From Butyrivibrio sp. (GTDB lineage Bacteria; Bacillota; Clostridia; Lachnospirales; Lachnospiraceae): a stretch of DNA of 64,000 nt. The stretch spans positions 43,115 through 107,114 of the forward strand of contig JAMPEU010000011.1 of NCBI GenBank assembly GCA_023664865.1. The letters are read 5' to 3'. The first letter of the stretch is position 1; each line of letters begins with the position of its first letter. Below the pieces are notes generated by a model, which saw only the letters and a list, made by a program, of their open reading frames with translations, did not search any database and was not told the origin of the DNA. Of this stretch, positions 20,380 to 48,562 are shown one piece after another. Made by a program: the position numbers and the translations under genes.

Positions 20380-20530
20380 GCGTCATGTACTCATATGTTT
20401 CCTCTTGAGGTCCTTGGGAAACGCCGGTCCTTGGTGAAAAAGCTGCTTTTTAGCTTTTGAACCTAGTACCGCTGCGCTTTCCCACGGAGCGAGAGCGTAC
20501 CTCAAGTGGAAGCATATGAGTACATGACGC
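20380..20530. repeat. Large palindromic hairpin element, copy 1
   Basis: A 151-bp element with perfect 18-bp outer arms (20380-20397 and 20513-20530) around CATATG, and an inner stem GGGAAACGC / GCGCTTTCCC. It lies 20 bp behind the loaP stop and ahead of the GT2 gene. It shares its inner sequence (GCCGGT, AGTACCGCTGCG, CACGGAGCGAGAGCGT) with copies 2-4. There is no U-tract after the minus-strand hairpin. Confidence 0.9.
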
Positions 20531-20549
20531 ATCCAGCAACCTGTTTCCA

Positions 20550-21056
20550 TCAACTCTTCTCCGTAATCTCTAGCCCAGCCTCCATCTTCACCATGCGCCC
20601 AAACAAATCAAGCTCCAGCCACGCCTTCCTCTTATGCCTGTCTATCTTCCTGATATAACTTTCCAGTCCCGTAAGCGGTCCCTTTGTGACATGAACAACC
20701 CCATTTCTTATAACGCCTGTAGAAATATCCAGCGCGTTCTCCCTTACTCCCATATGTTCCAACAGTTCCTCTTCGCTTTCCTTAAGCGGCACAATCTCAT
20801 CCCCCGTGCCGAGCATCTTTACCAGTCCGATTACATTTTCAAGGCTCCTATTCAGTTCTTCCGCATGACTGCTTATCATGAACACATATCCTGGAAACAG
20901 AAGTTTCTCCTGTGTATGCCATGCGCCCTGATATCTTTTCATCTCTTTGTAATGTGGGATAAAGCATTGTTCCAATATTCTTTTATCTGCAATCTTTATG
21001 CACTTATGCTTAATCTGTTCCTCGGCTCCGAGGCGTACCTGCGCTATGTACCACAT
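20550..21056 (-). CDS. loaP: LoaP-type NusG paralogue, transcription antiterminator
   Basis: The 168-residue protein has an N-terminal NGN domain (MWYIAQVRLGAEEQIKHKC, KLLFPGYVFM) and a C-terminal KOW domain (VVHVTKGPLTGLESYIRKID, WLELDLFGR). LoaP proteins travel with RNA polymerase, recognise an RNA hairpin in the leader and allow read-through of terminators across long polysaccharide or polyketide operons. I start at the ATG at 21056 with GGGGGTG upstream; the frame extends 18 codons further but overlaps the leader terminator. The 13-kb operon follows directly. Confidence 0.9.
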   Translation of the reverse strand: MWYIAQVRLGAEEQIKHKCIKIADKRILEQCFIPHYKEMKRYQGAWHTQEKLLFPGYVFMISSHAEELNRSLENVIGLVKMLGTGDEIVPLKESEEELLEHMGVRENALDISTGVIRNGVVHVTKGPLTGLESYIRKIDRHKRKAWLELDLFGRMVKMEAGLEITEKS

Positions 21057-21081
21057 GACGTCACCCCCGGCAAAAACGCGC

Positions 21082-21129
21082 AAAAAAAACAGGAATACCA
21101 TGCCCGTCATTTCGGGTATGATATCCCTG
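21082..21129 (-). terminator. Leader terminator upstream of loaP
   Basis: On the minus strand CAGGGATATCATACCCG pairs with CGGGCATGGTATTCCTG (16 of 17 positions including two G-U) around AAATGA, followed at once by eight Ts. This is a strong intrinsic terminator between the promoter at 21304-21333 and the loaP start, so it would block the whole operon unless read through. It could also be the LoaP recognition hairpin. Confidence 0.88.
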
Positions 21130-21211
21130 TTTTCTGTCTACTGCAATATATAAATTAGAATATGCTAAAAGCGCATTAAAAATCAGCAGTCCACTTAATT
21201 GGCTGCTAACG

Positions 21212-21300
21212 CTGTCTGTCTGTCTGTCTGTCTGTCTGTCTGTCTGTCTGTCTGTCTGTCTGTCTGTCTGTCTGTCTGTCTGTCTGTCTGTCTGTCTGTC
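21212..21300. repeat. Tetranucleotide microsatellite, about 22 units of GACA/TGTC
   Basis: An uninterrupted 89-bp run of the TGTC unit (GACA on the minus strand). It begins three bases after the -10 box of the loaP-operon promoter, so it forms the very start of the transcript. Perfect tetranucleotide runs of this length are prone to slipped-strand length change. No ATG-initiated frame of any length runs through it. A small hairpin at 21184-21206 follows. Confidence 0.95.
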
Positions 21301-21303
21301 AAG

Positions 21304-21333
21304 ATTATGCCTTGGCTACTCATGTTCTGTCAA
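21304..21333 (-). promoter_or_regulatory. Promoter of the loaP-polysaccharide operon
   Basis: On the minus strand TTGACA (21333-21328) and CATAAT (21309-21304) are 18 bp apart. Transcription would start about 21297, inside the GACA run. Confidence 0.8.
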
Positions 21334-21471
21334 TCCTTTTTTATAATAATTTCAATATTTTTCTCTTATGCTGCATAAGCTTACGGATTATGCAAGTAAA
21401 TTATAGCATATCAATATTTACAAGTCAACTGTGACTTGCATTTTACGTAAGTAAACCCTATTAATTTAGAC

Positions 21472-21519
21472 AAAAATATAGGTGAAAACATAAGTTAAAT
21501 AACCTGTGCTTTCACCTAT
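21472..21519 (-). terminator. Terminator behind the second Rpn gene
   Basis: ATAGGTGAAA and TTTCACCTAT form a 10-bp stem, followed on the minus strand by ATTTTTG. It lies 20 bp past the stop at 21539. The bases 21334-21470 hold no gene. Confidence 0.65.
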
Positions 21520-21538
21520 ATGCTTTATATTTTATCGA

Positions 21539-46734: not shown

Positions 46735-46831
46735 TTTATAACTATGCTCCTTCCTAAATTTTCTCAGCCTGCGGATTTTATTGCCGCATATGGTTTAGTA
46801 TATCACTTATGGGAAAAATAAGCAAAACAAA

Positions 46832-46907
46832 AGTTCAGCCCACAGGCGGCGTTTTTCAAGGACCTTTTCAGTGAGCATATATGTCCATGCCGCCTGTGGG
46901 CTGAACT
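46832..46907. repeat. Miniature relative of the palindromic hairpin element
   Basis: A 76-bp element with perfect 19-bp arms (46832-46850, 46889-46907) and the core GGCGTTTTTCAAGGACC, identical to part of copy 2. It looks like an internally deleted copy. It lies upstream of the M16C gene. The rest of 46735-47094 holds a hairpin at 46919-46954 and no gene. Confidence 0.75.
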
Positions 46908-46918
46908 GTCTATTAAAA

Positions 46919-46954
46919 GAACCGGCAAAAACAAAAAAATGTTTCTACCGGTTC
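46919..46954 (-). terminator. Possible terminator behind the 47095-47538 gene
   Basis: GAACCGG / CCGGTTC outer stem with an inner AAACA / TGTTT stem; on the minus strand TTTTAAT follows. Confidence 0.45.
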
Positions 46955-47094
46955 AGTGTAAAAGGGGAATTTTACCAGAATTTGTCTAGTAGAGTAAGTT
47001 TAACAGAAAATAATGTCAAAATCAAGTGTTTTATGCGCTAAATAATTTGTTATTTATCGCGCAGGTTCTATTCGCAGTCGCATAGGGCATGAAC

Positions 47095-47538
47095 TCATAC
47101 GCTGAAAGACATCATTGCCAGCTTGGAAATCATTATCTCCTGTATTTTCAGGCTGCATTTTTTCTTCTGCGCAAGATTCATCTTTACCAACTGTTCTAGC
47201 GGAAGGTTCATATTCTTATAAACCAGCTTATTTGCTCCGAAAAGCCCCTTTTTCTCTATGTACATACATACTTTAACCTTCGCCTTAAGCTGCATATATG
47301 TCTTATAGGAAAAATCTTCCTTATCCATATAATAAAACTGGCTCTCAAGCGTGGTATCCGCCTGCGTGTCCTTCATTATATAATGCTCAATAATGCTTTT
47401 TAACTTAAACGGAACCATCTCATTCCCGATAATCTCCGCATAATTGTAGCGCGCGCCCAAATACAGGCTGCCCACATCCTGCATAAAGTATTTAAAATCA
47501 TTATCCTGATATTTATCGTCTATCTCAAACTGTTCCAT
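47095..47538 (-). CDS. Conserved Lachnospiraceae protein of unknown function (DUF6145-like)
   Basis: A 147-residue soluble, charged protein (GSLYLGARYNYAEIIGNEMV, YYMDKEDFSYKTYMQLKAKV). I recall it as a DUF6145-type family limited to Lachnospiraceae, but this is from memory of the pattern and not certain. No motif indicates a reaction. It follows the sigma-like gene, separated by a strong hairpin. Confidence 0.65.
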   Translation of the reverse strand: MEQFEIDDKYQDNDFKYFMQDVGSLYLGARYNYAEIIGNEMVPFKLKSIIEHYIMKDTQADTTLESQFYYMDKEDFSYKTYMQLKAKVKVCMYIEKKGLFGANKLVYKNMNLPLEQLVKMNLAQKKKCSLKIQEIMISKLAMMSFSV

Positions 47539-47562
47539 CTATTATAACTACCATGCCTTTCT

Positions 47563-47606
47563 TTCCGCCTGCAGGAGCATGGACGTCTATGCTCCTGCGG
47601 GCGGAA
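47563..47606. terminator. Hairpin behind the sigma-like gene
   Basis: An 18-bp stem (47563-47580 with 47589-47606, one G-T pair) with an 8-base loop, 8 bp past the stop at 47615. It lacks a clear U-tract and resembles the outer arms of the palindromic elements (GGAGCATGGACG). Confidence 0.5.
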
Positions 47607-47614
47607 CTGTCTCG

Positions 47615-48349
47615 CTATTTCTGTATAGACTCTATTTTATCTGCAGTAATACGCAAAGCGTCTAATATGGTTTTCCTGCTCATTCCGGTCTCATTCATCA
47701 ACTCTTCCACCGTCACCTTGCGTTGTAAGTCCTGCGCAAGTTCGTTTGCCTTATCCGCGACTTTATTTACCTTATCGGCTATCTTTTTATCCTTCTGCGC
47801 CTCTCCTGCGTCTTCCGCTATAAGTTCTTCCATAGCGTCCATAATCATTTTTCCTAACATTCCCTGCGCTTCCGCGGCATTCTCAAGCGCGCCCAACATA
47901 GTCACGCCCATAGCGAGCGCAACATTTCCTTCTCCGATTAAATCCTCTAACAACACGCCCTGCCCCGTATAAAGTTTCGCAATTTCCACTACGCGCGGTA
48001 AGAAAATCTGCGTCAAACGGTTCTGCGCCGCCGTATCCCCCGCCATCGCCGAGAGCGTAACCGCCTCCTGTTCGCCGTCAGAAACTTCCGGAAGTTCATT
48101 TAACTGATTTAAATAGTCCTGCAGATAATCGACTTCATCTTCACTCAGATATTCGTCCGGATTCACAGGCTCGCCAATCCCGATTTTATGCTGTTTCAGA
48201 TAGTCAAAGACCATATTTAACTTTTCATCATCAAGCTCAAGCGAGGCAAACGCCTCTTCTACCTGTTCTTTAGAGATGCAGTTTCCCTGTTCTTTCGCCG
48301 TTTTTCTGACCTGCTCTAAAGTCCTAGCAAACAAAACTTCCCGATTCAT
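47615..48349 (-). CDS. Sigma-70-like protein lacking region 4
   Basis: A 244-residue protein. The N-terminal part is like sigma region 1.1 (ISKEQVEEAFASLELDDEKL, YLQDYLNQLNELP). Residues about 105-150 follow region 2.1-2.2 (AQNRLTQIFLPRVVEIAKLY, VLLEDLIGEGNVALAMG) but the DNA-melting and -10-reading part is degenerate. The end resembles region 3 (KVTVEELMNETGMSRKTIL). Without region 4 it probably is not a standard sigma factor. Start at 48349 is tentative; an in-frame ATG lies at 48370. Confidence 0.6.
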   Translation of the reverse strand: MNREVLFARTLEQVRKTAKEQGNCISKEQVEEAFASLELDDEKLNMVFDYLKQHKIGIGEPVNPDEYLSEDEVDYLQDYLNQLNELPEVSDGEQEAVTLSAMAGDTAAQNRLTQIFLPRVVEIAKLYTGQGVLLEDLIGEGNVALAMGVTMLGALENAAEAQGMLGKMIMDAMEELIAEDAGEAQKDKKIADKVNKVADKANELAQDLQRKVTVEELMNETGMSRKTILDALRITADKIESIQK

Positions 48350-48390
48350 TTTATAACATTTTCCTTTCATATGCTTACTATTGATGTCTC

Positions 48391-48562
48391 GCAGACCGCG
48401 GGAAGCATGGAGACATATGTTCTCTTTGCGGTACGCTTTCGCTCCGTGAAAAAGCGCAGTGGTACTAAGTTCAAAAGCCGCAAAGCAACTTTTTCACTAA
48501 GTACCAGCGTTTTTCAAGGATCGCGTCAGAGAACATATGTCTCCATGCTTCCCGCGGTCTGC
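48391..48562. repeat. Large palindromic hairpin element, copy 4 (core inverted relative to copies 1-3)
   Basis: A 172-bp element with perfect 35-bp arms (48391-48425 and 48528-48562), the longest of the set. The core reads in the opposite direction to copies 1-3 (GCTCCGTGAAAAAGCGC, GGTACTAAG, GCGTTTTTCAAGGA on the plus strand). It begins 14 bp past the stop of the rhomboid-like gene. Confidence 0.92.

Follow-up and report, generated by a model that had tools for sequence, protein, structure and literature searches.

Palindromic intergenic repeats with a conserved folded core in Butyrivibrio and other clostridia, probably mobile elements of MITE type

The closest described kinds of sequence to those reported here are miniature inverted-repeat transposable elements (MITEs), ERIC and the stem-loop families of gene 3' ends; the more novel part is a conserved core. 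The sequences in question are long hairpins of 137-172 bp, four full copies of which lie in a 64,000-nucleotide stretch of a Butyrivibrio sp. genome (contig JAMPEU010000011.1 of assembly GCA_023664865.1, positions 43,115 to 107,114; hereafter the window), and for which a preliminary description had offered an RNA stabiliser, a processing signal or a MITE as possible functions. Like bacterial MITEs, they are short and geneless, with terminal inverted repeats, target duplications and a high copy number, and in one related genome they have ends in common with a transposase-bearing element. Unlike bacterial MITEs, they have one strongly structured core in many genomes, with terminal repeats and arms that vary, and their arms make up most of the element. 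MITEs of IS4-type elements such as IS231 are also known, and both IS231 and Tn4430 insert into the ends of other elements. A REP unit is short and single, and the present units of 137-172 bp, with terminal repeats and duplications, are unlike REP/BIME sequences in this respect. In the available portions of PMC2817692, REP/BIME sequences with their RAYT resemble the family in having more than 100 copies, imperfect palindromes, conserved irregularities and some adjacent pairs in opposite orientation.

ERIC, Efa-1, Ype, Bor and Sta-1 are likewise intergenic hairpin repeats, as described in parts of PMC1590033 and PMC2267715, where Ype and Efa lie preferentially near the 3' ends of genes and ERIC forms a single long stem-loop; set beside these descriptions, the present family differs in its hosts, and Efa-1 differs from it in being an adjacent pair of stem-loops. 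In the portion available of a human-microbiome survey (PMC8040213), 250 of 3161 candidate RNAs are palindromic and found on both strands, as is the family here, and 230 of those 250 are predicted terminators, unlike the present hairpins. The earlier statement that no named family matches holds for Rfam 15, which gave no hit at the gathering threshold in the whole window and none at E<=10 for 20300-20620, and for the open-licence papers, among which the core sequence and related terms led to none on the family. The terms Clostrid-, Firmicutes, IS4 and IS231 are absent from the main text of a review of prokaryotic MITEs (PMC10969869).

Ends, duplications and distribution of the copies

It is probable that the copies are non-autonomous, MITE-like palindromic elements that evolve by template switching and are kept where their insertion is tolerated. 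Each unit would comprise a folded core, long complementary arms and terminal inverted repeats, and a transposase acting in trans would move it as DNA, duplicating target bases: 8 bp with the ends found in the genome of the window (G000) and 10 bp with the IS4-type ends found in a relative, G022. The G022 unit would often enter the ends of other elements, with units that have bracketing ends showing 8-bp duplications of their own. Once inserted, the palindrome would evolve as one object, template switching copying arm onto arm and sometimes flipping the core, and conversion between copies would exchange apical loops. Arms would thereby diverge between loci yet stay complementary. Copies would be retained chiefly a short way past stop codons, since an insertion at such places leaves genes and promoters intact.

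Terminal repeats of two types, A (GTTACTATTCACAG) and B (GTAACAGTTCAGCC), flank many copies. At no more than one mismatch they occur 32 and 50 times in G000, with none for the reversed controls, and 14 and 22 times in its close relative G020 (reversed controls 2 and 2). Both ends are recognisable (<=3 mismatches of 13) in 45 of 149 copies from these two genomes, and at the predicted offset 8 of the 45 match in 7-8 of 8 positions as 8-bp duplications; permuting the partners gave a mean of 0.28 and a maximum of 2 in 200. In G022 the unit is ~189 bp long with 18-bp ends (CAATGTCATTAAGTTAAG), which are present at <=3 mismatches in all 30 fetched copies, and exact 10-bp duplications accompany 15 of the 30, compared with 18 of 870 between different loci. 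This unit frequently has another element's end as its insertion site (GTTCAGCCCA being one example of a target), and type-A ends bracket 8 of the 30 copies, the 8-bp duplication being exact in seven and 7-of-8 in one. The 18-bp end has 261 matches in G022 and one in the reversed control. Among 20 stretches of G022 around single ends, 16 held a core copy, one an IS4-family element, two a single end and one a short pair of ends without the core. This IS4-family element has two 18-bp ends, 1,711 bp apart (one mismatched), around an intact open reading frame (ORF) of 436 aa that scores above the thresholds of both the IS4-family model (127.5 bits, cut-off 115) and DDE_Tnp_1, and it is likely to be the transposase of this element that moves the unit there.

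Some neighbouring sequences deserve mention in their own right. In the IS4-family element of G022, the stretch from the start of the transposase to the right end (L363:1780-1860) has two perfect inverted repeats; one of them includes GCGAGAGC, which the core has in its side hairpin, the core itself being absent. A 186-bp repeat of G000 (L396:1826-2011, L397:1596-1781 and C114:183395-183580) has type-B ends without the core and is probably a second MITE with such ends. Pairs of elements in opposite orientation, no more than 60 nt apart edge to edge, are found in G000 at C114:129176-129490, C44:10141-10489, C94:34151-34487 and C44:81158-81527; they are reminiscent of a BIME-like arrangement or of one copy inserted into the end of another.

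Comparison of sites between relatives agrees with mobility. In stretches fetched regardless of whether they held copies, both flanks were located in G020 for 15 among 27 copies of G000, and a counterpart is present at 3 of these 15 comparable sites, with no full copy at the other 12. One G000 copy is nested inside an older remnant. At the ftsY-ilvA site, inspected by eye in 30 genomes of the genus, 27 have no element, G000 and G020 have one in common and G035 has a different one. The option of a mobile element raised in the preliminary description is supported by inverted-repeat ends, target-site duplications, filled and unfilled sites, one copy nested in a remnant and the matching ends of an IS4-family element in one relative.

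The family is abundant and extends beyond the genome of the window. In the 458 kb scanned of G000 (3.82 Mb, 180 contigs), covariance model R1 and a profile hidden Markov model (HMM) each found 27 copies, the HMM count including the internally deleted copy of the window and the R1 count one weaker match instead; extrapolation gives ~225 copies per genome. G020 has 10 copies in 367 kb, three of them partial. A DNA-similarity search of 61 genomes matched 12, all of them congeneric; the 24 genomes that represent other families of the order gave no match. The covariance model matched 10 of 10 chosen genomes of the genus, one weakly, and the family is not confined to one genome; these matches were scored among at most 150 candidates per genome, both strands of a palindrome can match, and the counts are accordingly not totals (G000 150, G020 140, G016 129, G022 123, G026 60, G010 35, G006 27, G035 19, G005 5, G012 1). 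The single match in G012 (E 0.003) appears unrelated when aligned.

Among GTDB genomes at least 107 stretches match the core pattern, and the 107 listed form our diverse set, 11 of them from the record of G020 itself. The listed matches come from records titled Lachnospiraceae, Mogibacterium, Agathobacter, Acetatifactor, Blautia, Clostridiales and others. Most of these records are metagenome bins, so labels such as Muribaculaceae and Selenomonadaceae may reflect binning errors; one record, 'Clostridiaceae bacterium strain 1XD21-72', has the title of a strain. Among the matches listed, 4 of 88 diverse copies lie between direct repeats of 9 bp or longer, with 0.15 expected, three of the four being from one bin. 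Carriage by phages or plasmids was considered and rejected: with copy 2 as query, blastn found no match in the phage and plasmid collections, and the exact core pattern was not found in viral contigs.

A folded core between covarying arms

Copies 3 and 4 fold far better than shuffled sequence, with -74.1 kcal/mol for copy 3 (z -10.2) and -112.7 kcal/mol for copy 4 (z -16.8), and in neither case were any of 200 shuffles as good. The model structure is one long helix of 57 pairs with a two-pair side hairpin on one side only. Across 32 aligned copies 97.9% of 1,885 cells are paired and both sides have changed at 36 of 59 pairs; none of 500 shuffles reached either the observed pairing or the observed two-sided changes, and sliding the structure reduced pairing to 34-49%. 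The covariation first noticed among four copies stands well above shuffles in this wider alignment. A T.T (U.U) mismatch within CTTAG/CTTAG and a CT bulge are invariant in all 32 copies. The side loop is GNRA in 147 of the 149 G000 and G020 copies and in 92 of 92 readable diverse copies among the matches listed, the mini-hairpin being unreadable by simple pattern in 15 of the 107. Six types of side loop were found, with closing pairs that covary. Mismatches on the canonical strand are GU in 206 cases and AC in 110 (column pair 36/126 excluded), divided into 88 and 27 in the inner stem and 118 and 83 in the outer arms; as the copies share kinship, neither mismatch nor loop counts are independent. 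The GNRA loop and the excess of GU point to a folded single strand, which may be RNA or perhaps DNA. DNA octamers of the GCGAAAGC type form very stable hairpins too. The core is special in that its side loop is GNRA in every readable diverse copy and in that it recurs across many clostridial genomes though ends and arms differ.

Orthologous copies in G000 and G020 reveal how the arms change. Of 17 ortholog pairings three are oppositely oriented and were excluded (two in-place inversions and one second element of a double site). The remaining 14 pairs give 800 pair positions, among which 679 are unchanged, 68 have changed on both sides and stay paired, 51 have changed on one side, and 2 have changed on both sides and are unpaired. 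With 11.9% of bases changed, independence would predict 11.4 double and 168 single changes. Unpaired positions of the same copies have changed at 11.6% (47 of 404). At two orthologous sites the core has been inverted in place with the arms retained, at several sites apical loops have been swapped between copies, and the arms-only remnant at 47563-47606 shows a coupled A/C and T/G difference when compared with its counterpart, the full copy in G020. The left arm is unique among the 149 copies in 15 of 34 ortholog copies, the others sharing it with another copy, in a sample of which part was picked as strong matches. According to the available parts of PMC8604942 and PMC8794818, template switching homogenises the arms of a palindrome and inverts its spacer. 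The excess of paired changes and the in-place inversions fit template switching in a palindrome, which is probably their cause; selection on the fold, or conversion between copies, may be other sources of paired arm changes.

Between genomes the arms retain complementarity and lose identity. With one copy taken from each of 68 genomes, among the matches listed, identity 31-52 nt out from the core pattern is 29%, near random, and the arms within a copy are on average 92% complementary; the local alignment used to locate the arms is biased towards complementarity, and arm identities were computed without gaps. Of the 107 listed diverse copies, 103 have an arm of 14 bp or more. Within each of QXXC, JAGAFN, CADATO, CACZGY, CADAKQ and CACWQH, copies have inner flanks that are 90-100% identical and arms that are 9-41% identical, and most JAMPFM copies, CANQVH and L170 have shared arms instead. 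Either arm turnover is far faster than that of the core, with core conversion helping, or arms can be renewed. A motif at the arm base seen by eye (GGACG / GCTGTG) is present in only 4-7 of 106 diverse copies among the matches listed, and was dropped.

Placement and alternative explanations

The placement of copies was assessed for 146 copies of G000 and G020 with two neighbours, with ORFs from a simple longest-ORF caller. Only five share more than 60 bp with an ORF. Among the remaining 141, 117 of 143 facing 3' ends lie within 60 nt (6 overlapping) and 106 of 139 facing starts at 30-200 nt, as measured from the arm, so that the terminal repeat, where present, occupies part of the spacer. Copies avoid genes and promoters and lie near a stop where one faces them. 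The preliminary description had all four copies placed just behind stop codons; this is correct as a tendency and fails as a requirement, because copies are no rarer than the background in divergent gaps, where no stop faces them (18 of 141 copies, with 103 tandem and 20 convergent, compared with 82 of 698 gaps, with 541 tandem and 75 convergent). Among the listed diverse copies, 21 of 81 lie inside an ORF of at least 90 aa, some of these ORFs being probably spurious. Placement behind stop codons is best read as tolerated insertion. The use of an orientation bias as evidence of RNA function was given up: the canonical strand is antisense to the upstream gene in 63 of 95 G000 and G020 copies near one stop (63 to 32), compared with only 20 to 16, no bias, in diverse genomes among the matches listed.

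We consider it unlikely that the elements are primarily cis-acting RNAs of 3' ends (stabilisers, processing sites or terminators), selected on the transcript and mobile only secondarily. The strong covariation, the GNRA loop of every readable diverse copy, the preponderance of GU over AC, the crowding of copies near facing 3' ends and the antisense orientation in G000 and G020 are all consistent with such RNAs. Strong covariation alone is no evidence of RNA function, however, because template switching in palindromes can also generate it (PMC8794818). In addition, both orientations occur, with the core flipped in place at two orthologous sites, the diverse genomes are without orientation bias, most comparable sites lack a full copy in a close relative, divergent gaps are occupied at the background rate and copies 1-3 are without a terminator-like site, all of which argue against selection on a 3'-end transcript.

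It is also quite improbable that mobility resides in the core, which a REP/RAYT-like or retro-type enzyme would recognise in the form of folded RNA or single-stranded DNA, with the ends as later captures. The recurrence of the core, with varied ends and arms, in records from many genera, its invariant mismatch and bulge, and the strand specificity of its GNRA loop and GU excess would suit such a unit. Readable duplications lie outside the terminal repeats and not at the core, no RAYT-like or retro-type enzyme turned up (none was searched for), and neither copy 2 in the phage and plasmid collections nor the exact core pattern in viral contigs found a match, all of which count against it. A related proposal, which we regard as possible though less likely than not, is that the core represents a new clostridial class of mobile structured RNA or single-stranded DNA module that has been repeatedly captured by different transposon ends. 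Such a module would have a long bulged helix with a fixed mismatch, and beside it a GNRA hairpin, with arms nearly free of sequence constraint, and the folded core would aid its own spread, for example by recruiting a host or transposon protein.

Finally, each insertion might create fresh arms by duplicating the target in inverted form beside a hairpin core, as suggested by copies of one genome that combine near-identical inner flanks with unrelated, self-complementary arms (ungapped arm and inner identities of 0.09 and 1.0 for QXXC L105/L132, 0.14 and 0.95 for JAGAFN, and 0.23 and 0.9 for CADATO) and by JAETRI arms of 66-81 bp that differ in three copies. This is very improbable, because QXXC-type copies have conserved sequence outside the arms too, the 81-bp arms of L079 lie inside a direct duplication of 10 bp, and partial motifs recur among the JAETRI arms.

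The reading of the copies as MITE-like elements also has observations to contend with. A core that is conserved while ends change, with a side loop that is always GNRA, is unexpected in a plain MITE. Only one end is recognisable in 57 of the 149 copies and none in 47. The IS4-family element of G022 has no 10-bp duplication around itself and no core, and no transposase-bearing element with ends A or B was present in 20 stretches of G000 and G020. Many of the 12 unfilled G020 sites hold remnants, such that loss and insertion are both at work, and two mismatches of copy 3 are kept in both species, so homogenisation is not instant.

The elements of the window and the significance of the family

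The full copies, the side mini-hairpin of copy 1, a terminal-repeat-like sequence and two remnants overlooked in the first reading of the window are collected in Table 1. The four hairpins are present where the preliminary description placed them, and their paired arms are confirmed: the arms are self-complementary over 35 of 35 bp in copy 4, 97% of 30 bp in copy 2 and 94% of 33 bp in copy 1, and the predicted fold of copy 3 pairs 17 bp of outer arm. The alignment of copies shows the change from CGC/GCG to CAC/GTG in copy 3 and shows the core of copy 4 to be reversed. In G020 the site of copy 4 has no full copy, possibly a decayed end only, and the orthologous sites of the two remnants each hold a full copy.

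Table 1. Copies, remnants and associated features of the hairpin family in the window
Feature	Position	Strand	Remarks
Copy 1, canonical core	20380..20530	+	180.5 bits; behind loaP
Copy 1 side mini-hairpin GC-GAGA-GC	20489..20496	+	GNRA loop, canonical strand; structure columns 116-123
Copy 2, canonical core	26952..27103	+	160.1 bits; behind ilvA; orthologous copy in G020
CAACTATTCACAATC, diverged type A, terminal-repeat-like	28405..28419	+	outside left arm of copy 3
Copy 3, canonical core	28426..28562	+	149 bits; between ftsY and ilvA; ortholog in G020
Internally deleted copy	46832..46907	-	19-bp outer arms and partial core
Arms-only remnant	47563..47606	.	18-bp arms, one T.G
Copy 4, canonical core	48391..48562	-	146.3 bits; behind ORF 48577-49464

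Each full copy lies 14-19 nt from the stop of a minus-strand ORF (14-20 nt in the preliminary description). The names given to three of these genes are supported by NCBIfam models (loaP, NF033641, 160 bits, cut-off 125; ilvA, TIGR01127, 441.5 bits, cut-off 378.75; ftsY, TIGR00064, 370.4 bits, cut-off 260.7), and the rhomboid-like label of the fourth, ORF 48577-49464, is unsupported, there being no Pfam or NCBIfam match at E<=0.001. The reported lack of a U-tract terminator was also found here: a scan of 20200-29700, which covers copies 1-3 and counts loops of 3-8 only, gave 8 terminator-like sites (6.0 in shuffles), none on these copies, and the arms of copy 4 have no directly adjoining T-run.

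Other features of the window are independent observations. The loaP gene (ORF 20550-21110, minus strand) has 22 perfect CTGT tetranucleotide repeats at 21212-21300, ~100 nt upstream of its start, a tract that could make loaP expression phase-variable, and the ORF upstream of loaP (21539-22486) has a YhgA-like match (PF04754, 30.7 bits, cut-off 21). A second intergenic repeat pair of ~140 bp (5841-5982 and 8011-8157, 96-97% identity) has by eye no sequence relation to the hairpins. A short hairpin is present in two copies that are 91% identical (2753-2796 and 22637-22680), the latter followed by a T-run and scoring as terminator-like on the minus strand.

Although numerous and widespread in gut clostridia, the family has no match in Rfam. 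It provides a natural test case for distinguishing covariation that arises from selection on RNA from covariation that arises from template switching in DNA palindromes, as its hundreds of copies, arms-only remnants and in-place inversions allow these two sources to be separated. It is also unusual in a MITE that the core is conserved and the ends change, which raises the question of what role the core plays.

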